A stretch of 64,000 bases of DNA from a candidate division NC10 bacterium CSP1-5. GTDB lineage: Bacteria; Methylomirabilota; Methylomirabilia; Methylomirabilales; CSP1-5. Shown one piece after another: positions 10,171 to 19,810 of this stretch. Numbering within the stretch: the first letter of the stretch is position 1; every line of letters starts with the position of its first letter. The DNA is taken from the NCBI GenBank assembly GCA_001443495.1, contig LDXR01000013.1:33776-97775 (forward strand), written 5' to 3'. Position numbers and translations under genes: made by a program. The notes under the pieces were generated by a model. That model ran no database searches. It was given only the letters and a program-made list of their open reading frames with translations, and had not been told where the DNA came from.

Positions 10171-10995
10171 TCATTGGTGGTTAGGTTTTTGCAGCACGAA
10201 GCTTGAGTATATCACCTCTCCAGTCCGGAAACCTTCATACATCATAGAGCCTCTGACCCCGGCGAATTCCTGGAATGGTCCTAACAGCATCTTGTGCACT
10301 GCTTCCTGTATCAGCGCCAGTTTGCGTTCGTTGTCCAAATTCAGGGCTTCGATAACATTCGTTGTTATATTCGTCTCTTTGATCAGAGTCATCCCGGAAT
10401 GACGTAACTCTCTACGAAGATTGTCGATTTCGTCTTTGTCACGAAAGTCTGCGTACAGAAAGTAACCACCCTGCCGGAGGACCCTCTTGACTTGCATAAG
10501 AAAGGCATTTATTGAACCATAACAGTGGGAGGATTCCACATTAACAACCGCGTCAAAGCTATCATCCCTAAAAGGCAGACATTCAGCATCGCCAACTACG
10601 AATGAAAGTCCTTCTACGAAAGAATAGCGTTTCTTGCAGAATGCCACTGCTCTTTTTGAAAAATCAACACCGACCACTCTTTTTGGCCTTAAAAAACATT
10701 TGATATAATATGCGCCCCCTCCCCGACCGCTGCCTACTTCCAGCACCTTTAAATCTTTAAGGTCAACAACATTGGCAACATGGTGATAGAGTTGGATGCA
10801 ATAGCGATCTGGCTCGTCAGCATCGTCCAATTGGAGTTTCTCTGTCTGGGGGTCTAATGAAGCGTAGCCATAGTTTATGAATGACCACTCTTCTCTCTTG
10901 TAGGATCGTGCCAGGAACTGGTACCAGTGTCTCCAGATTAACTTTCTCAAATGAGGAGAAAGTCGACAAATGGCCATGAAGAGTTTAGCGATCAT
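10171..10995 (-). CDS. SAM methyltransferase, phthiotriol-methyltransferase-like
   Basis: About 274 residues of class I methyltransferase. The N-terminal arrangement (RHWYQFLA, then FINYGY, then IQLYHHVA) leads into the SAM loop VLEVGSGRGGGAYY and GDAECLPF. It resembles mycobacterial phthiotriol/phenolphthiotriol dimycocerosate O-methyltransferases over its length. Starts at 10995 (GAGGGG seven bases upstream) or 10977 are possible. An upstream in-frame extension to 11247 encodes an unrelated epimerase fragment. The gene is clearly AT-richer than its neighbours, which points to recent acquisition. It converges with the acyl synthase operon; a link with that product is only a guess. Confidence 0.8.
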   Translation of the reverse strand: MIAKLFMAICRLSPHLRKLIWRHWYQFLARSYKREEWSFINYGYASLDPQTEKLQLDDADEPDRYCIQLYHHVANVVDLKDLKVLEVGSGRGGGAYYIKCFLRPKRVVGVDFSKRAVAFCKKRYSFVEGLSFVVGDAECLPFRDDSFDAVVNVESSHCYGSINAFLMQVKRVLRQGGYFLYADFRDKDEIDNLRRELRHSGMTLIKETNITTNVIEALNLDNERKLALIQEAVHKMLLGPFQEFAGVRGSMMYEGFRTGEVIYSSFVLQKPNHQ

Positions 10996-10998
10996 GAA

Positions 10999-11247
10999 GG
11001 ACCCCTCATGATCATCGGGCCCAATCAATAGACCAGGATTCACAACAACGACGTCGCGATCTCGTGCGGCTGCAGCGAGTGCCAGTTCCTCGGCTGTGCG
11101 CTTTGCTTGCACGTACTCTACCTGAAGCCCTCGCAGGTTCCAAGTGTCATCTTCCGTCAGGGGCCGTCCGTGCGATGCGCCGACCGTAACGACGCTGGAG
11201 GTGTGCAGGAGGCGCGCCTGATTCATCAATGACCTGGACCTTGACAC
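10999..11247 (-). pseudogene. Truncated NAD-dependent epimerase remnant
   Basis: The in-frame stretch upstream of the methyltransferase reads as the middle of an extended SDR epimerase. It shows LLHTSSVVTVGAS, a YVQAKRTAEELAL segment (the catalytic Tyr and Lys pair) and DVVVVNPGLLIGP. The N-terminal Rossmann GxxGxxG and the C-terminal half are both missing. GC content is that of the host, whereas the adjoining methyltransferase is AT-rich, so the boundary near 10995 looks like a recombination junction. The 5' break falls close to the promoter of the plus-strand operon. Confidence 0.7.
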
Positions 11248-11269
11248 CCCCCCTCCGCCTTGTAATAAT
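11241..11269 (+). promoter_or_regulatory. Sigma70-type promoter of the acyl synthase operon
   Basis: TTGACA at 11241-11246 is followed after 16 or 17 bases by TAATAA/AATAAT (11263-11269), about 55 bases before the first operon gene. No operator palindrome is evident. The -35 box lies at the broken end of the epimerase remnant. Confidence 0.6.
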
Positions 11270-11321
11270 GAACAGGTTTACCACAGGACCAGAATCAGAG
11301 TCCGAATGAGCAGGGACAGCG

Positions 11322-12077
11322 ATGTCGTACCCACTCAACGGGAAGGTTGCCCTGGTGACCGGCGCCTCCCGGGGCATCGGCCGCGCGATCGCGCGGAAGC
11401 TAGCCTCGGCCGGATGTCACTTGGCGGCGACGTATTACAACAGCCACGACGAGGCGGAGTCTCTGTGTGCGGAGGTCCGGGCAATGGGGCGGCGCGCCTG
11501 CGCGCTCCAGGGCAACGTCGCCAGCCCCGAAAGTGTCGGTGAGGTCATGGAGGCCTTTGGGAAGGAATTTGACCGCCTCGACATCCTGATCAACAATGCC
11601 GCTACCGGCGTGCTCAAGCCCGCTCTCGAGATGACCCTCAAGCAGTGGCGGTGGTGCTTGGAGACCAATGCGTTGGCTGTGAACCTCTTCGCTCAGCGCG
11701 CAGTCCCGCTCATGCCGCGGGGGGGCCGCATCATTGCCATATCCAGTCTCGGTGCGAGCCATGCGATTCCCGGGTACGGTTTCATCGGAGCTTCGAAAGC
11801 CGCCCTGGAGTCGCTCGTACGGACTTTGGCACAGGAGCTGGGGCCGCTCGGCATTTGCGTCAACGCGGTCAGTGCGGGACCCGTAGACACCGATGCCTTG
11901 AAGTTTTTCCCAAACCGCGAAGAGCTGCTCTCCTCATTCACGCAGCGGGCGCCGTCGGGGCGTGCCCTGACGCCCGATGATGTCGCGGGCGCGGTCTACC
12001 TCCTCTGCCTTCCGGAGGCCGACATGGTCACGGGTCACACGCTGGTCGTGGACGGCGGATTTTCCATTGCGAGCTGA
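11322..12077 (+). CDS. FabL-like enoyl-ACP reductase (ER III)
   Basis: A 251-residue SDR. It has the cofactor loop TGASRGIG (residues 13-20), NNAATGVL, and an active-site Tyr152-x6-Lys159 in YGFIGASK. That six-residue spacing and the C-terminal block DTDALKFFPNREELL are what distinguish FabL (enoyl-ACP reductase III) from FabG ketoreductases (Tyr-x3-Lys). It is the first gene of the operon and reduces the enoyl intermediate to a saturated acyl chain. The NADPH preference of FabL is family knowledge. An enoyl reductase in this position separates the cluster from aryl-polyene systems. Confidence 0.82.
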   Translation: MSYPLNGKVALVTGASRGIGRAIARKLASAGCHLAATYYNSHDEAESLCAEVRAMGRRACALQGNVASPESVGEVMEAFGKEFDRLDILINNAATGVLKPALEMTLKQWRWCLETNALAVNLFAQRAVPLMPRGGRIIAISSLGASHAIPGYGFIGASKAALESLVRTLAQELGPLGICVNAVSAGPVDTDALKFFPNREELLSSFTQRAPSGRALTPDDVAGAVYLLCLPEADMVTGHTLVVDGGFSIAS

Positions 12078-12086
12078 GGGACCAGG

Positions 12087-12845
12087 ATGTTCCAGGCCTC
12101 CGGTTTGGCGGACAAAGCAGTCATCATTACGGGCGGGACCCGCGGCATCGGGCGGGCAAGCGTGGAGCTCTTTGCAGCCGAGGGGGCTGATGTCACCTTT
12201 TTCTTTCGGCAAAGCCAGGCCCTTGCTAATGAGCTCGTCGCCGCCGGTCGTGCCGTAAAGCAGCGGATCACGGCGGACCAGGTCGATGTCCGAGACGGCA
12301 AAGCATGTGAAGCGGCCGTCGAGCGGATGGTGAGTCGCTGCGGCCGGATCGATGTGCTTGTCAACAACAGCGGGGTGATCCGCGATAACCTGCTCGGGCT
12401 CCTCGAGGACGACGACGTGAAGACTGTCCTCGACACCAATGTCGTCGGGATCTTTAACGTCACGCGTGCGGTGGTCACGCACATGATCTCCCGCCGCGCA
12501 GGTAAGATTATCAACGTGAGTTCGGTCGCGGGCGAAAAGGGGGGCCGAGGTCAGACAAACTACGCGGCAAGCAAGGGGGCAATCAACGCCTTCACCAGGG
12601 CGCTCGCCGTCGAGTTGGCCCCCCGCGGAATCACCGTGAATGCCGTGGCTCCCGGCGTCATCGAAACTGATATGTCACGCGATCTCCTCGAACAGGCACC
12701 TGACGAAGTAAAGTCGCGCATTCTCCTCCGGAGGGTCGGCATGCCGAGGGAGGTGGCCTACGCGATCATGTTCCTCGCTTCGAAGTATGCGGACTACATC
12801 ACTGGGCAGATCCTCCACGTTGATGGCGGATTCAAGATGGAGTGA
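12087..12845 (+). CDS. 3-oxoacyl-ACP reductase (FabG-like ketoreductase)
   Basis: A 252-residue classical SDR. It has TGGTRGIG near residue 15, NNSGV, Ser145/Ser146 in NVSSVAG, the catalytic pair Tyr159-x3-Lys163 (YAASK) and the FabG-type tail ITGQILHVDGGF. It reduces beta-ketoacyl-ACP to hydroxyacyl-ACP. It sits nine bases after the FabL-like gene and just before the carrier protein. A second housekeeping FabG is presumably elsewhere in the genome. Confidence 0.9.
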   Translation: MFQASGLADKAVIITGGTRGIGRASVELFAAEGADVTFFFRQSQALANELVAAGRAVKQRITADQVDVRDGKACEAAVERMVSRCGRIDVLVNNSGVIRDNLLGLLEDDDVKTVLDTNVVGIFNVTRAVVTHMISRRAGKIINVSSVAGEKGGRGQTNYAASKGAINAFTRALAVELAPRGITVNAVAPGVIETDMSRDLLEQAPDEVKSRILLRRVGMPREVAYAIMFLASKYADYITGQILHVDGGFKME

Positions 12846-12849
12846 ACGG

Positions 12850-13290
12850 ATGCAGAGCTCATACGACACAATATCGAAGGATGAGGTCATGGAGGTTTAT
12901 CCGAAGGTGGCGGAGACCATTGCGGAGGCTCTGGGTCGCGATCTCGACGACGTAAAACTGACGGCCCCGCTCATGGAAGGCCTCGACGCAGAATCGATTG
13001 ACTTCCTTGACATCGTCTTCCGTCTCGAACGACAATTCAAGGTCAAGATCCCACGGGGAAAGATCGCGGAGGACGCGCGTGGAACCCTGTCGGAGGAGGA
13101 GTTTGAGCAGAAGGGTTACCTCACGCAAGCGGGCCTGAAGCGGTTGCAGGAGCACCTCAGCGAGGTTTCTCCAGAGCGCTTCAGATCTCCGATTAAGGCC
13201 CGCGACATTCCACGCCTCTTTACCGTGGAGACCTTTTGCAAACTGGTGGTGCGAGCCCAGAAGCAAGCCACAAAGTCCCCGGATGGCTAG
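12850..13290 (+). CDS. Acyl carrier protein, C-terminally extended (146 aa)
   Basis: The phosphopantetheine site is GLDAESIDFLD, with Ser49 as the attachment residue (the usual DSL appears as ESI). Residues 10-75 form the ACP helical bundle. A further 60-70 residues, including TLSEEEFEQKGYLT and a final helix, exceed the usual 80-residue ACP. The same long form is known for carriers in dedicated acyl synthases. The ATG at 12850 lies four bases after the ketoreductase stop; the frame is open upstream only as a shadow. The fused AcpS domain four genes downstream probably activates it. Confidence 0.85.
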   Translation: MQSSYDTISKDEVMEVYPKVAETIAEALGRDLDDVKLTAPLMEGLDAESIDFLDIVFRLERQFKVKIPRGKIAEDARGTLSEEEFEQKGYLTQAGLKRLQEHLSEVSPERFRSPIKARDIPRLFTVETFCKLVVRAQKQATKSPDG

Positions 13291-13441
13291 AAGACCTTCA
13301 GTCCACCCGGATCACAGAGCACCGCATGCAAAGGCGTCAGGTCGGGAGAACCCGGCGTGCGGTTGATGAGTTGCGCGCGGTACGGCACATGCCGGTTCAG
13401 AACCTCGGTATGGGGCCCCTTTCCAAGAACGGTGGCCAGGA

Positions 13442-14275
13442 ATGGCATTCTTATTTGTCGATCGAATCACAGAGATCGTGCCCGGCAGGCGGGCCCGCGG
13501 CACCTTCTCCATCCCAAAAGATCTCCGAAGTCTGTCACCATGCCTTGTCGGTGAAGCGCTTGGACAGCTCGCAGCGTGGGTCGCGATGGCACAGGTAGCG
13601 TTTCGCAGTCGACCGGTTGCGGGAATAACCGGTGAGTTCAGAATAAAGCGAGATGCTTCTCCGGGGGCAATTCTCGACCTGGAAGTGGAGCTCGACACCT
13701 GTGAGAGTGATGCAATCCTGTATGGCGGATCGGCGCGTGTCGAGGACCGTCCGATCGTGGAACTCAGCCGGTGCGTCGGTCCCATGCTTCCGATGGAGGA
13801 CTTCGACGATCCCGAGGTCGTGCGCGACCGCTTCGAGTTGCTCTGCGGCGCAGGGGCACCTCCCCAAAGCTTCTCCGGTGACGTCGCGCCAAGCCCCCGC
13901 ATTGTGGTTATTGATCACAATCCCGGCAAGCGGCTTCGTGCGGAAATGCAAGTTCCCAGTTCGGCCCCGTTTTTCGCAGATCACTTCCCGCGGAGGCCGG
14001 TGTTTCCCGGAACGCTCCTCATCGATGCAAACGTGCATCTTGCAGTTCGCCTAGCCAGAGAGGTAGTTGACCCGAGCGTCCGTATGCTGCTCAGGACGAC
14101 GCGCATCTCGAACGTGAAAATGCGCTCGTTCCTGCCCCCCGGTCAGTCACTGGAGATTGATGCGGAGATCGTAACGGCGAGCCGGAGTTCTGCCGAGATT
14201 ACGCTCATCTCGGAAGCCGAAGGCCAACGGGTGTCGACCGCCCGTGTGGAGACAGGCCTGTGGGTGGCATCGTGA
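13442..14275 (+). CDS. Double-hotdog 3-hydroxyacyl-ACP dehydratase
   Basis: The 277 residues contain two FabA/FabZ-type hotdog folds. The first opens MAFLFVDRITEIVPG and keeps the central-helix Glu38 (LVGEALGQLA), but its His loop is absent. The second carries the full loop FFADHFPRRPVFPG (His181) with Asp195 (LLIDANVHL), as in FabA. One complete active site therefore lies in the second fold, and the first may be structural. It should dehydrate hydroxyacyl-ACP made by the ketoreductase. A 150-bp gap separates it from the ACP gene and holds only a 27-codon frame of no evident meaning. Confidence 0.8.
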   Translation: MAFLFVDRITEIVPGRRARGTFSIPKDLRSLSPCLVGEALGQLAAWVAMAQVAFRSRPVAGITGEFRIKRDASPGAILDLEVELDTCESDAILYGGSARVEDRPIVELSRCVGPMLPMEDFDDPEVVRDRFELLCGAGAPPQSFSGDVAPSPRIVVIDHNPGKRLRAEMQVPSSAPFFADHFPRRPVFPGTLLIDANVHLAVRLAREVVDPSVRMLLRTTRISNVKMRSFLPPGQSLEIDAEIVTASRSSAEITLISEAEGQRVSTARVETGLWVAS

Positions 14276-15573
14276 CGCGCGCACGAGTTCGGGTAGCGAT
14301 CACCGGACTGGGCCTCGTGACTCCCCTCGGCAACGACACCAGGACCACGTGGGAGGCCCTCCTCACTGGTCGCACGGGAATCGCTCCTATCATGACCTTT
14401 GACGCCAGCGGCTTTCCGGTCCGAATCGGTGCCGAGGTAAAGGGATTTGACCCAAGAACCGCCATCGAGGACCGCAAGCTCCTCAAGTTTTCCAATCGGT
14501 ATCACGGCTTCGCCCTCGGCGCAGCCGAAGAGGCGATTCGGGACGCCGGCATCCGCCCTGAGAACGCTAGCGCAGCCCGCTGGGGTTGCGTCGTCGGAAG
14601 CGGGATGATGGGGATCGAGTTCGGTGAACTCGTTGAGGCGCATCGCCGATTTGCTGTGGATGGCCATATCGCTCCGGAGCGATTCGGCATCGACGGAATC
14701 GCTGGTGCGGACCCGCTCGTGTTCTGCCGAAGTCAGGCGAACAACGGACTTTCGCTCTTGCTCCAACATTTCGGGATCCGCGGCTATGCCACAGCCGTTC
14801 ACACCGCGTGCGCCTCGGGAGGGCAGGCAGTCGGAACGGCGGTGAAGTTGATTCGACGCGGGACCGCTGACTTTGTCCTCACCGGCGGCTTCGACTCGAT
14901 GCTGAACCCGGTTGGGCTCGCGGCGTTCTGTCTCCTTGGCGCCCTTTCACCGGACAATGATGAGCCCGAACGGGCGAGCCGTCCGTTCGACCGCACGCGC
15001 AACGGTTTCATCCTCGGAGAGGGGGCCGGGTTTCTCGTTCTCGAGGAGTGGAATGCGGCCTGCCGGCGCGGGGCGCGGATTTATGCTGAACTCGCCGGTG
15101 ACGGGAACTCCCTCAGCAGTTACAGAATCACCGATTCCCATCCATCAGGCGATGGGCCGATCCAGGCGATGGCTCAGGCCCTCGCCGATGCCCGCGCACG
15201 CCCTGAAGATGTCGACTACCTCAACGCCCACGGGACGTCGACTCCCATGAACGACCGGAGCGAGTGTGCAGCGGTCCGCGCCGTGTTCGGCGCCCATGCG
15301 GACCGGATCGCGGTCAGCTCGACAAAGAGTCTCATGGGGCACCTCATCGCGGGGGCCGGGGCGGTCGAGGCCGCGATCTGCGCCCTGGCGATCCACCATG
15401 GGCTCCTTCCGCTCAACGCAAATCTCCACGAGCCCGACCCTGAATGCGACCTGGATTTCGTCCGCGACCTCCCGCACCCCCGAAGAGTAGGCGTTGCCAT
15501 ATCGAACTCCTTCGGCTTCGGCGGGTCGAACAATTGCGTCATCCTTCGAAACCCTGAGGACGTTCACATATGA
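14272..15573 (+). CDS. 3-oxoacyl-ACP synthase, FabF-like (KS-alpha)
   Basis: A 433-residue condensing enzyme with a complete thiolase-fold active site: Cys180 in HTACASG, His320 in NAHGTSTP, and Lys352/His357 in STKSLMGHL. The GTG at 14272 overlaps the stop of the dehydratase (GTGA), and the frame upstream adds only four residues. It elongates the chain on the operon's ACP. The next gene is a KS homologue without the cysteine, so the two probably form a KS-alpha/KS-beta heterodimer like that of type II polyketide and aryl-polyene synthases. Confidence 0.9.
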   Translation: MTRARVRVAITGLGLVTPLGNDTRTTWEALLTGRTGIAPIMTFDASGFPVRIGAEVKGFDPRTAIEDRKLLKFSNRYHGFALGAAEEAIRDAGIRPENASAARWGCVVGSGMMGIEFGELVEAHRRFAVDGHIAPERFGIDGIAGADPLVFCRSQANNGLSLLLQHFGIRGYATAVHTACASGGQAVGTAVKLIRRGTADFVLTGGFDSMLNPVGLAAFCLLGALSPDNDEPERASRPFDRTRNGFILGEGAGFLVLEEWNAACRRGARIYAELAGDGNSLSSYRITDSHPSGDGPIQAMAQALADARARPEDVDYLNAHGTSTPMNDRSECAAVRAVFGAHADRIAVSSTKSLMGHLIAGAGAVEAAICALAIHHGLLPLNANLHEPDPECDLDFVRDLPHPRRVGVAISNSFGFGGSNNCVILRNPEDVHI

Positions 15574-16847
15574 GCAAGAAGGTGATGATAACCGGCGAGG
15601 GCGCCATCTGCGCCGCGGGGAAGGACCCGGATGAGATCTGGAAAGCGGCGAGGGCTGGGCGATCCGCGATCGACGCAATCCAGCAGTGGGACTCCTCAAA
15701 TTGGCCATCCAGACTAGCGGGAGAGATTGCCGACCTCAACCCGCGAGCATTAGTGGAGGATCGAAAGCTCCACAAGCTCGTCCGGCGCACCGATCTTCTC
15801 GGGTTGTACGCCGCATCGAAGGCGATAGAAGATGCCGGGCTCATCCCGCATCGTGACGCCCTTGATCCCGCCCAAGCCGACCTGTTCAATGATCGCACGG
15901 GGGTCTATGTCGGGGGGGGCGGCGGTGCCTACCAAGACCAGTACGATTACTTCCCCCTGCTCACCGCTGCGAGGGGGGACCTGGGGATCTTCGGTCGCCA
16001 ACTCGCCACGACCGTAAACCCGATGTGGCTTCTCCGGACCCTGCCCAACAACGTCCTCTGCCATATCGGAATCCGATACGCCTTCAAGGGGCCGAATGCG
16101 TGCATAACAAACCACACCGCCAGCGGGATGCTCGCCGTCGCCGAGGCGGCCGCTGCCCTTCGCGCAGGCGAGGCAGACCGTGCAGTCGCCGTCGGGCACG
16201 ACTCCCCCATCGAACCGGAGACAATCCTCTATTTCCATGCGCTTGGCCTCCTCGCTGCGGATACGATTCGGCCCTTTGACAGCGCCCGGAGCGGGACTCT
16301 TTTAGGGGAGGGTGCCGCGGCGCTCGTCCTCGAAACGGCAGCGGCAGCCCGGGCACGCGGCGCGAAGGTTCGCGGCGAGTTTCTCGGCAGCGCCTGTGTC
16401 GCCGAGGGGGAAGGGCTCCTCTCGATCCGCACGGACGGGGATGGGCTCGTACGCGCTATTGTCCTGGCGCTCGAGGACGCGGAGATCGGCCCGGCAGACG
16501 TCGGGATGATCGTGGCCCACGGAAACGGCACACCACCGTCGGACGCGTCGGAGGCATCGGCAATTCGCCATATCTTTGGGACGAAGCCGCCACCGACCAC
16601 GGCCTTCAAGTGGGCCTTCGGGCATCTCTTGGCCGCCTCAGGGATCCTCGACACCGTATTGGCCCTCGACTCGCTCCGGCATGGGGATGTTCCCGGGATC
16701 GCAACCCTCCGCGAGCTGGACCCGGCCTGCGCAACCCTGGCAGTATCTACAACGGCGCAACCGCCGCGCAGCGGCGTCGCACTCGTTCTCGGCCGTGGCT
16801 TTGCAGGAACAAACGCCGCACTGCTCTTGCGAGCCTCGGCTGACTAA
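15570..16847 (+). CDS. KS-beta / chain-length-factor-like protein lacking the active Cys
   Basis: A 425-residue KAS-fold protein starting in an ATGA overlap with the previous KS gene. Where KS enzymes have TACASG it reads NHTASG, so the nucleophile is Thr183. The His in VAHGNGTPPSD and the KWAFGHL block remain. Such Cys-less partners (KS-beta, CLF) set chain length or decarboxylate the primer in type II systems, usually with Gln in place of Cys; Thr is unusual. A Gly-rich loop (VGGGGGAY, residues 114-121) and many substitutions show divergence from its partner. Confidence 0.82.
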   Translation: MSKKVMITGEGAICAAGKDPDEIWKAARAGRSAIDAIQQWDSSNWPSRLAGEIADLNPRALVEDRKLHKLVRRTDLLGLYAASKAIEDAGLIPHRDALDPAQADLFNDRTGVYVGGGGGAYQDQYDYFPLLTAARGDLGIFGRQLATTVNPMWLLRTLPNNVLCHIGIRYAFKGPNACITNHTASGMLAVAEAAAALRAGEADRAVAVGHDSPIEPETILYFHALGLLAADTIRPFDSARSGTLLGEGAAALVLETAAAARARGAKVRGEFLGSACVAEGEGLLSIRTDGDGLVRAIVLALEDAEIGPADVGMIVAHGNGTPPSDASEASAIRHIFGTKPPPTTAFKWAFGHLLAASGILDTVLALDSLRHGDVPGIATLRELDPACATLAVSTTAQPPRSGVALVLGRGFAGTNAALLLRASAD

Positions 16848-16856
16848 GGGAGACGG

Positions 16857-18101
16857 ATGGTGGACGACTCTGGTCCCCGGACGCGCTGCGGCATTGACTC
16901 CGTCCAGATCGCGCGCATAGAACGTCTGCTTCGCGAGACACCCCAGGAGGACCTCCTCCGGATCTTCTCCGCGGAGGAACTCCAGGACGCCGGGGATGGA
17001 GTCGGTCGACTGGCCAGCCTCGCGGCACGGTTTGCTGCCAAAGAAGCGTGCCTGAAACTCTTTCCCCGTGAGACCGCACTCGGACAGATCGGTCCAGGGG
17101 ACTTTGCGGTGGCACGCGACGGTTACGGCGCGCCCAGCGTCGTCTATAGTCCGAAGATTCAGGAACTCCTCGATCGTTATCGGCTCAAAACGATCGCGCT
17201 CTCTCTCACGCACGACGGAGCTACCGCTTCCGCCGTCGCGGTGACCGAGCCTGCGGAGACGCGGGTGCCCCTCGCCGGCAGGCTTATCTACCATCTCCTT
17301 CCCATACGCCGTCGGGTAGTCCTCTCGAATCTCCGTCGCGTCTTCGGGGGAAAGGTCCCGGAGGAGGAGATCGTGCGGCTGGCGCAAGCCTTCTACGGGC
17401 ACCTGGCCCGTTTCGTCGTCGAGTTCCTCCGCTTCCCGCTCATCCCTGCGCAGCGCCGCGCCGCCCTCGTGCGTGTAGAGAATGTCGAGGCAATTCTTCG
17501 TGCGCATGCGCTGGGGAAAGGGGTTCTCGTTCTCACCGGCCACTTCGGGAACTGGGAGTTGGCAACCGCCGCGGGGATCGCACAATTTCCCGAATACCGG
17601 GGCCGGTTCCACATCACGCGGAAACCCCTTCGCCCCCTCTGGCTCGACAGCTTCGTCTACGGACGATCCCGTCGCGAGGGTTTCGGCGTCCTTCTTAAGA
17701 AGGGGGCGCTTGAGGCCATCCTAGATCGGCTGGCTGCTCAGGATATCGTCGTATTCATCCTCGACCAGCACGCCGGTGGCAGGGACGGTGTGGTGGTGCA
17801 GTTCTTCGGTCATCCAGCCGGGACGTTTCGAAGCCTTGCGACCATTGCGCTTGCGACCGGGGCACCAGTGGTTCCGGCAGCGACGTGGCGTGAGGCGGAT
17901 GGCCACCACGTGCTCCGGTTCGACGAGGCTCTCCCTTTGGTGGAGTGTAACGACGTTGATGAGGCGATCCGCGCGAACACACGTATGTACAATGCCGTCC
18001 TCGAGCGGTTCGTTCTCCGGCATCCCGAGCAGTGGTTCTGGATGCACCGTCGCTGGAAAGGACCTCGTTTGTCCACCAGCCATTCTTCCCCAGGCTCCTG
18101 A
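16857..18101 (+). CDS. AcpS-type phosphopantetheinyl transferase fused to LpxL-type acyltransferase
   Basis: Residues 1-130 are a holo-ACP synthase. CGIDSVQIARIERL carries the metal-binding Asp14, and FAAKEACLKLF carries Glu63. Residues 140-400 are an HtrB/LpxL-family acyltransferase: the HX4E motif is HFGNWE (His229-Glu234), followed by ITRKPLRP, DQHAGGRDGV and the terminal PEQWFWMHRRWK. I know of no common architecture joining these two. The protein would both activate the carrier and unload the finished acyl chain onto a membrane acceptor. The usual N-terminal membrane anchor of LpxL is absent. It lies nine bases after the KS-beta gene and ends the operon. Confidence 0.85.
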   Translation: MVDDSGPRTRCGIDSVQIARIERLLRETPQEDLLRIFSAEELQDAGDGVGRLASLAARFAAKEACLKLFPRETALGQIGPGDFAVARDGYGAPSVVYSPKIQELLDRYRLKTIALSLTHDGATASAVAVTEPAETRVPLAGRLIYHLLPIRRRVVLSNLRRVFGGKVPEEEIVRLAQAFYGHLARFVVEFLRFPLIPAQRRAALVRVENVEAILRAHALGKGVLVLTGHFGNWELATAAGIAQFPEYRGRFHITRKPLRPLWLDSFVYGRSRREGFGVLLKKGALEAILDRLAAQDIVVFILDQHAGGRDGVVVQFFGHPAGTFRSLATIALATGAPVVPAATWREADGHHVLRFDEALPLVECNDVDEAIRANTRMYNAVLERFVLRHPEQWFWMHRRWKGPRLSTSHSSPGS

Positions 18102-18143: not shown

Positions 18144-19193
18144 CTAACGACCATGCGGGTCCGACATCGTCAGGACAGCCGCACCCCGGAGCTCTCCTCG
18201 CCGGAGACACCCCAAGGCGTCATTCACCCGCCGAAGCCCAAAAATTCGTACCTCCGTTCTGACCGGGACTTGCGGCGCGATGGCCAGGAATTCTTCGCCA
18301 TCCCTCCGCGTCAGATTGGCCACCGAGCGCACTACGCGTTCTCCCCACAACAGGCGATAGGCGAACGATGGAATATCACTCATGTGAATGCCGGCGCAGA
18401 CGACGATTGCGCCTTTGGTGCTTGCGTTCAGTGCCGCCGGAAGTAGCGAACCGACCGGCGCAAAGATTATTACGCCATCTAGTTTCTCGGGTGGCAGCTC
18501 CGTCGAGTCGCCCGCCCAACTGGCCCCCAGTTGACGGGCAAACTCTTGGGCCTCGGTGTCACCCGGTTTTGTGAAGGCATAGACACGCTTCCCCTCGTAC
18601 ACGGCCACCTGGGCGATCACGTGGGCGGCGGCGCCAAATCCGTAAATTCCCAGTCGTTCGATATCTTTCCCGACCATCCGATACGATCGGTACCCAATGA
18701 ACCCCGCGCACAACAAGGGAGCTGCCTCAGTGTCACCGTAGACTGCGGGGAGACGAAAGCAATAGCGCTGATGCGCGGCCGTGTATTCCGCATACCCCCC
18801 GTCGAGCGTATAACCGGTGAACCGCGCCTCGTTACACAGGTTTTCTTGCTCCTTCCGGCAGTAAGGGCACCGGCCGCACGTCGCACCGAGCCAGGGCACG
18901 CCAATCCGGTCACCCACGCAAAACTCTTGGACGTGCTCCCCTTTGTGAACAATGGTGCCGACGATTTCGTGTCCCGGGATCAAAGGGAGCTTTGGGTCCG
19001 GGAGTTCACCGTCCACGATATGCAGATCCGTCCGGCAGACGCCGCAGGCCTGAACCCGAATCAGAACCTGGTCTGGACCTGGCCGAGGAACAGGTACCTC
19101 CGTCGCTCGGAGCGGCTGCCCCGGAGCCTCGAGTACCATCGCACGCATATGTGTCGGGAGCTCCATGCTTTGCGCCGCCGCGATGTCGCCCAT
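18144..19193 (-). CDS. Zinc-dependent alcohol dehydrogenase (MDR superfamily)
   Basis: A 349-residue MDR enzyme. It has catalytic-zinc residues in CGVCRTD and GHEIVG, a structural zinc cluster with four cysteines in CGRCPYCRKEQENLC, and a Rossmann motif GIYGFGAAAH. The start is placed at ATG 19193, preceded by AGGTGA; ATGs at 19166 and 19148 are alternatives. The sequence resembles the AdhP/YahK-like group that oxidises primary alcohols or reduces aldehydes. It converges with the acyl synthase operon, so a shared pathway is possible but unsupported. Confidence 0.88.
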   Translation of the reverse strand: MGDIAAAQSMELPTHMRAMVLEAPGQPLRATEVPVPRPGPDQVLIRVQACGVCRTDLHIVDGELPDPKLPLIPGHEIVGTIVHKGEHVQEFCVGDRIGVPWLGATCGRCPYCRKEQENLCNEARFTGYTLDGGYAEYTAAHQRYCFRLPAVYGDTEAAPLLCAGFIGYRSYRMVGKDIERLGIYGFGAAAHVIAQVAVYEGKRVYAFTKPGDTEAQEFARQLGASWAGDSTELPPEKLDGVIIFAPVGSLLPAALNASTKGAIVVCAGIHMSDIPSFAYRLLWGERVVRSVANLTRRDGEEFLAIAPQVPVRTEVRIFGLRRVNDALGCLRRGELRGAAVLTMSDPHGR

Positions 19194-19222
19194 AGGCTCA
19201 CCTGCAGAACAGCACGATTCTC

Positions 19223-19810
19223 TCATGACGGCCGGCGCTCCGGATGGAGCGCGCGAATCTCGGCATGCCGAAAGCAGGAAACCAGGTGGTCATTGACCAT
19301 GCCGGCGGCCTGCATGAACGCATAGCAGACCGTCGAGCCGGCGAACGCAAAGCCCTGCTCCCTCAAGGCTTCACTCATCCTGTCCGACTCCCTCGTTTTG
19401 GCCGGAACTCGACGGATCGTCTTCCAGGAGTTGTGTCGCGGGCTACCGCCCACGAATTGCCACACGAAGGCATCAAACGATCCGAACCTGTCCTGGATTC
19501 GGAGAAATGCCCGGGCGTTCGTGACCGCGGCCTCGACCTTTTGCTTGTTCCGGACGATCCCGGGATCTGCCAGCAGCCGCTCGATGTCCCGTCTCGTGTA
19601 ACGGGCGATCTTCTCCGGGTCGAAGTTGGCGAACGCCTTGCGGAAATTCTTCCTCTTGTGGAGGATGATCGCCCAACTGAGACCGGCCTGAAAGGCATCC
19701 AGTACCAGGTGCTCGAATAGCTTGCGGTCGTTGTGAACGGGCACCCCCCACTCGTGATCGTGGTAGGCAATCATCAACTCACTTAGCTCGGCCCAGCAGC
19801 ATCGCTTCAT
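19223..19810 (-). CDS. tag: DNA-3-methyladenine glycosylase I
   Basis: A 195-residue Tag glycosylase, which excises 3-methyladenine from DNA. The N-terminal RCCWAELSE and AYHDHEWGVP carry the zinc Cys and His. LDAFQAGLSWAIIL precedes the helix-hairpin region, and the C-terminal HLVSCFRH supplies the remaining His and Cys ligands. The ATG at 19810 gives the canonical start. It lies 29 bases after an alkyltransferase-like gene, forming a small alkylation-repair pair. Confidence 0.92.
   Translation of the reverse strand: MKRCCWAELSELMIAYHDHEWGVPVHNDRKLFEHLVLDAFQAGLSWAIILHKRKNFRKAFANFDPEKIARYTRRDIERLLADPGIVRNKQKVEAAVTNARAFLRIQDRFGSFDAFVWQFVGGSPRHNSWKTIRRVPAKTRESDRMSEALREQGFAFAGSTVCYAFMQAAGMVNDHLVSCFRHAEIRALHPERRPS

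Follow-up and report, generated by a model that had tools for sequence, protein, structure and literature searches.

Lipid A is the membrane anchor of lipopolysaccharide, and its acylation is normally fed by the general fatty acid pool. The nearest described system to the operon reported here is the rhizobial acpXL-fabZXL-fabF2XL-fabF1XL-adhA2XL-lpxXL cluster, which, as mutants show, makes a very-long-chain fatty acid carried by lipid A (PMC11901934, PMC5613085). Two further groups share parts with the operon, namely the aryl polyene clusters, represented by that of E. coli CFT073, and the late acyltransferases LpxL and LpxM of the Raetz pathway. Neither an AcpS-LpxL fusion nor the seven-gene set presented below was found described in the open-access papers searched, in which the Methylomirabilis papers among the matches listed were general genomics and lipid papers only. 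An earlier sequence-only reading knew of no pathway with exactly this set and left the close rhizobial counterpart unnamed.

Gene content and predicted functions

The window is a stretch of 64,000 nucleotides from the candidate division NC10 bacterium CSP1-5 (GCA_001443495.1, contig LDXR01000013.1, positions 33,776 to 97,775 of the forward strand). Seven adjacent plus-strand open reading frames at 11322-18101 were assigned by Pfam and NCBIfam profile searches, and these are the same seven functions, at the same place, that the sequence-only reading had proposed: an enoyl reductase, a ketoreductase, a carrier protein, a dehydratase, a ketosynthase, a Cys-less ketosynthase and a phosphopantetheinyl transferase-acyltransferase fusion. 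Neighboring genes overlap or are separated by gaps of 10 bp or less, with the sole exception of 151 bp between the ACP and DH genes. The features are as follows.

11241..11269, plus strand: candidate sigma-70-type promoter, TTGACA-17-AATAAT with TG before the -10 element (11/12 consensus match only)
11322-12077, plus strand: FabL-type (SDR) enoyl-ACP reductase (ER); NF005975 at 331.4 bits, cut-off 328; YX6K kept
12087-12845, plus strand: FabG-type 3-oxoacyl-ACP reductase (KR); FabG family match, YX3K invariant
12850-13290, plus strand: acyl carrier protein (ACP); PF00550 (PP-binding), Ser49 invariant, long insert before the last helix
13442-14275, plus strand: double-hotdog 3-hydroxyacyl-ACP dehydratase (DH); FabZ/FabA match in the C-terminal half only, which holds His181
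14260-15573, plus strand: KSalpha, FabF-like condensing enzyme; Cys-His-Lys-His present, own clade
15570-16847, plus strand: KSbeta, FabF-like partner; FabF-like match, active Cys replaced by Thr
16857-18101, plus strand: AcpS phosphopantetheinyl transferase fused to an LpxL-family acyltransferase; PF01648 and PF03279 (ACPS and Lip_A_acyltrans) in one protein

A single promoter at the 5′-end had also been claimed; a match does begin at 11241, and a promoter scan returned 4 promoter-like sites where 1.1 ± 1.1 were expected, but as a consensus match it is only suggestive of an operon promoter. The minus-strand ORF at 10171-11247 is a composite of an HpnA-like NAD-dependent epimerase fragment and a SAM methyltransferase resembling phthiotriol/fatty-acid O-methyltransferases, and may be a chimeric remnant or have a mis-extended start. 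An ADH-family gene (18147-19226) adjoins the operon on the opposite strand; no tie between the two was established.

The residues expected for each activity are largely conserved in the alignment of the operon loci. The ER lies above the FabL equivalog cut-off and its YX6K motif is present in 26 of 27 rows, and the KR YX3K motif, ACP Ser49 and DH His181 are conserved. The N-terminal domain of the fusion is an ACPS domain whose catalytic Asp, Glu and Lys (D14/E63/K67) are conserved except in two or three rows, which show gaps or a single change; this domain and the gene content as a whole bear out the proposed dedicated type II acyl synthase that activates its own carrier. In the LpxL domain, the catalytic HX4D/E motif of PF03279 takes the form HX4E (H229/E234) and is conserved. 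The PF03279 match begins at profile position 42, indicating that the usual N-terminal segment is missing and that AcpS sits in its place. The AF2 model of the DH (pLDDT 91.4) contains two hotdog halves, the second of which holds the only FabZ-type His, and matches the double hotdogs of PKS DH and TesB with Z 16-20. In the model of the fusion (pLDDT 87.9), the N-terminal part matches AcpS and the C-terminal part matches PatA and LpxM, with PatA ranked above LpxM.

The two ketosynthases differ in their nucleophile. KSalpha carries TACASG in the window, and its Cys is found in 36 of 38 rows and its His, Lys and His in 38 of 38. In the KSbeta of the window (NHTASG), the Cys is replaced by Thr while both His and the Lys are kept; of the 38 loci, 18 have Ser here, 16 have Cys, and Thr and Gly occur in 2 each, and the His, Lys and His are present in every row where aligned. 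The 16 Cys-keeping proteins are those of Verrucomicrobiota and of one genome of the order to which the window belongs (G005). This variation indicates that the Cys loss is genuine in the window's genome and lineage-specific, so that the description of a Cys-less ketosynthase holds here and is not a general property of the operon.

Distribution of the operon and the loss of lpxL

The operon was found in 6 of 95 Methylomirabilota genomes, the five besides that of the window being recognized by close KSbeta relatives (65-78% identity); the full seven-gene order is present in G009, G013, G004 and G005, and the copy in G028 is cut by the contig end. When 84,980 species genomes were scanned with the KSbeta alignment, 37 loci were identified in Methylomirabilota, Betaproteobacteria (Burkholderiales), Verrucomicrobiota and Binataceae, mostly in metagenome-assembled genomes. 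The gene order is identical in all 37 wherever the contig is long enough, and its repetition in several phyla indicates that the arrangement is not due to chance. Comparison with NC10 and other genomes, as suggested by the sequence-only reading, therefore shows a conserved order, and no known cluster with a defined product was matched. Genes flanking the operon vary from genus to genus. Upstream of it in betaproteobacterial and verrucomicrobial loci (L073 1488-5687, L097 1625-5757 and similar ones) is a recurrent group of genes, encoding a methyltransferase similar to ICMT/PEMT, a protein with a condensation domain, and a related pair of proteins that match no Pfam family, carry a GHSQGG motif and in some cases have lipoprotein signals. 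In a plasmid search, none of 66 records covered 80% of the fusion, and all KSbeta matches were below 60% identity (33-35% among the matches listed).

In the window's genome (G000), the profile search detected no PF03279 protein other than the fusion. The lipid A pathway is otherwise represented by LpxK, identified by Pfam, and by KdtA, LpxB, LpxI and LpxA, recognized in the same cluster from sequence and synteny. Between lpxK and waaF, G012, a member of the same genus, carries a stand-alone lpxL, as do G030, G024, G001 and G005. This slot lacks lpxL in five of the six operon-bearing Methylomirabilota (G000, G009, G013, G004 and G028), and in G000 lpxK and waaF are approximately 24 bp apart. 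Among genomes of the order that are at least 80% complete, LpxL is absent in 4 of 4 operon carriers vs. 2 of 25 genomes without the operon (Fisher p = 6e-4, not corrected for kinship).

Other genes of lipopolysaccharide biology are found near the operon in further lineages. In Proteobacteria, a gene for an LpxO-like lipid A hydroxylase lies 69-130 bp downstream of the operon in L080, L081 and L103 and 1.2 kb downstream in L079; the model NF033391 gave 452 bits, below its cut-off of 500, in the two loci scanned. In Binataceae, lptF, lptG and kdoO come after the operon in L101, together with the beginning of an ABC transporter gene; in L105 an LptF-like ORF and a transporter resembling MsbA take this place. 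These independent contexts, together with the loss of lpxL from its slot, point to lipid A as the most likely acceptor of the acyl chain, which narrows the membrane acceptor that had been predicted before.

Several observations stand against this assignment. Three genomes of the same genus, G008, G010 and G011 (68, 92 and 85% complete), were found to contain neither the operon nor any PF03279 protein, and in them (L118-L120) lpxK adjoins waaF without lpxL, indicating that the operon is not required for the loss of lpxL; these bacteria may make under-acylated lipid A or use another, unknown enzyme. Both the operon and a stand-alone lpxL are present in G005, further PF03279 proteins are retained in many betaproteobacterial and verrucomicrobial carriers, and replacement of lpxL is seen in few operon-bearing lineages, namely three. 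The case of G005 (L041) possibly reflects a separate acquisition: it groups with Verrucomicrobiota at both ketosynthase forks (that of KSalpha weak, that of KSbeta supported), which suggests transfer, and it has kept the KSbeta Cys alongside its lpxL.

The alternative that survives best is that the specialized chain is destined for some other glycolipid or phospholipid of the envelope and that the LpxL-family domain has a different acceptor, as in PatA or VexE. PatA is indeed the top structural match of this domain, VexE is an LPLAT enzyme that acts on a UDP sugar (PMC9597891), and the condensation-domain, ICMT-like and hydrolase-like lipoprotein genes upstream of some loci hint at additional chemistry. 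This alternative is nevertheless considered unlikely, because lpxL has gone from a conserved slot in three operon-carrying lineages and because of the LpxO, LptFG, KdoO and MsbA-like neighbors.

Relation to housekeeping fatty acid synthesis and proposed mechanism

A complete housekeeping cluster, plsX-fabH-fabD-fabG-acpP-fabF, is located on contig C24 of the same genome, and a separate stand-alone AcpS is encoded on contig C20. A tree of 47 ketosynthases places KSalpha and KSbeta each in a supported clade of its own, apart from the housekeeping FabF clade that includes the C24 FabF; the rhizobial, aryl polyene and type II polyketide enzymes lie on long branches (that of FabF2XL being very long), and their placement is unsure. 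The identification of KSalpha as the housekeeping FabF was accordingly rejected. Two weak ketosynthase-family matches outside the operon (G000:C10:34842-37515) are possibly thiolase-like.

It is very improbable that the operon is a redundant housekeeping synthase that feeds phospholipid synthesis in general: KSalpha is FabF-like, the KR is FabG-like and the ER is the only FabL over the cut-off in the genome (in a search of enoyl reductases of the FabL type alone), but a complete cluster and a separate AcpS exist elsewhere, the operon ends in an LpxL-family fusion and lacks FabD and FabH, and its distribution within the phylum is patchy. No FabD, FabH or starter enzyme was found among the seven genes, so malonyl loading and the starter must come from the host, which encodes such enzymes on C24, and the earlier proposal that the operon works without host help does not hold.

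On balance, the operon is likely a type II acyl synthase dedicated to lipid A, whose LpxL domain would replace the ordinary LpxL; this reading draws on sequence-derived evidence, namely gene content, catalytic residues, conservation, the emptied lpxL slot and the lipopolysaccharide gene neighborhoods. In the proposed mechanism, the AcpS domain of the fusion would arm the operon's own ACP, and KSalpha, probably as a heterodimer with KSbeta, would condense malonyl units loaded by the host FabD onto a host-derived starter acyl chain. The FabG-type KR, the double-hotdog DH and the FabL-type ER would reduce each cycle fully, giving a presumably saturated chain, which, if the analogy with rhizobia holds, may be long or very long. 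Finally, the LpxL domain, if active as predicted, would move the finished chain from ACP to a lipid A precursor, standing in for the ordinary LpxL.

Comparison with described systems

The aryl polyene locus of CFT073 shares with the operon a type II ketosynthase pair with a chain-length-factor-like member, ACPs, a DH, a KR and an LPLAT, a resemblance that would favor an aryl-polyene-like or other specialized polyene or polyketide cluster with a KS/CLF pair. Such an identity is highly unlikely, since that locus has a ligase, an MMPL exporter, a thioesterase and a LolA-like protein and no ER, whereas the operon lacks these four and has an ER, pointing to full reduction, and since KSalpha and KSbeta belong to lineages other than those of the aryl polyene enzymes and match FabF models ahead of other ketosynthase models. 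With LpxL and LpxM, the fusion shares PF03279, the HX4E motif and the fold match to LpxM; it differs from them in its N-terminus and in being encoded beside its own acyl synthase. For the activity of these enzymes, transfer of an acyl chain from ACP to Kdo-lipid IVA, the emptied lpxL slot is an indirect sign in the case of the fusion. This natural AcpS-acyltransferase fusion is offered for study.

The rhizobial XL cluster and the operon have in common a dedicated ACP, a DH, two ketosynthases and an LpxL-family transferase as the last gene, all on one strand. AcpXL also carries an insert before the last helix, shorter than that of the operon ACP but located at the same point; E. coli AcpP has no such insert. 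The lipid A chain that typifies the rhizobial system is hydroxylated as well as very long. In both systems a ketosynthase is paired with a second one without the active Cys; FabF2XL of S. meliloti (L122 5016-6218) has GEEAAG where the window KSbeta has Thr, which suggests that the rhizobial pair is also an active/inactive one, although the likeness is partial given the 16 of 38 loci in which KSbeta keeps its Cys. The operon differs in having its own FabG-type KR and an SDR FabL-type ER instead of a zinc dehydrogenase, a double-hotdog DH, the reversed order of ketosynthases and AcpS fused to the transferase, as well as in the disappearance of the ordinary lpxL from several carriers. The zinc-type dehydrogenase AdhXL of the rhizobial cluster is absent in Bradyrhizobium, and it gave no significant match to the seven operon proteins. 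Identity to the rhizobial XL proteins is 25-36% where alignable (ACP 35%, DH 32%, KSalpha to FabF1XL 36%, transferase 27%), and the operon proteins do not reach the models PRK06508 (36.2 bits vs. 83), PRK06501 (312.9 vs. 629) and PRK06553 (106.2 vs. 273), which we take to be those for AcpXL, FabF1XL and LpxXL, respectively. The operon would work like the rhizobial cluster but, given the low identity, these scores and the differing gene content, is not classified as a member of it.

A broader view can be put forward tentatively: the operon may be a transferable, cross-phylum lipid A cassette in which a full elongation system, with its ACP-arming enzyme fused to the acyltransferase, displaces the lpxL already present and endows its carriers with a lipid A chain that is unusual and possibly very long. 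The lipid A of the lineages concerned (Methylomirabilota, Verrucomicrobiota and Binataceae) is little known, and the operon leads to a prediction about lipid A structure that is open to a direct check. Such a dedicated and apparently horizontally spread synthase, replacing lpxL in several lineages and either independent of the rhizobial system or at most a very distant relative of it, would represent a second route to custom lipid A chains, next to the rhizobial one.
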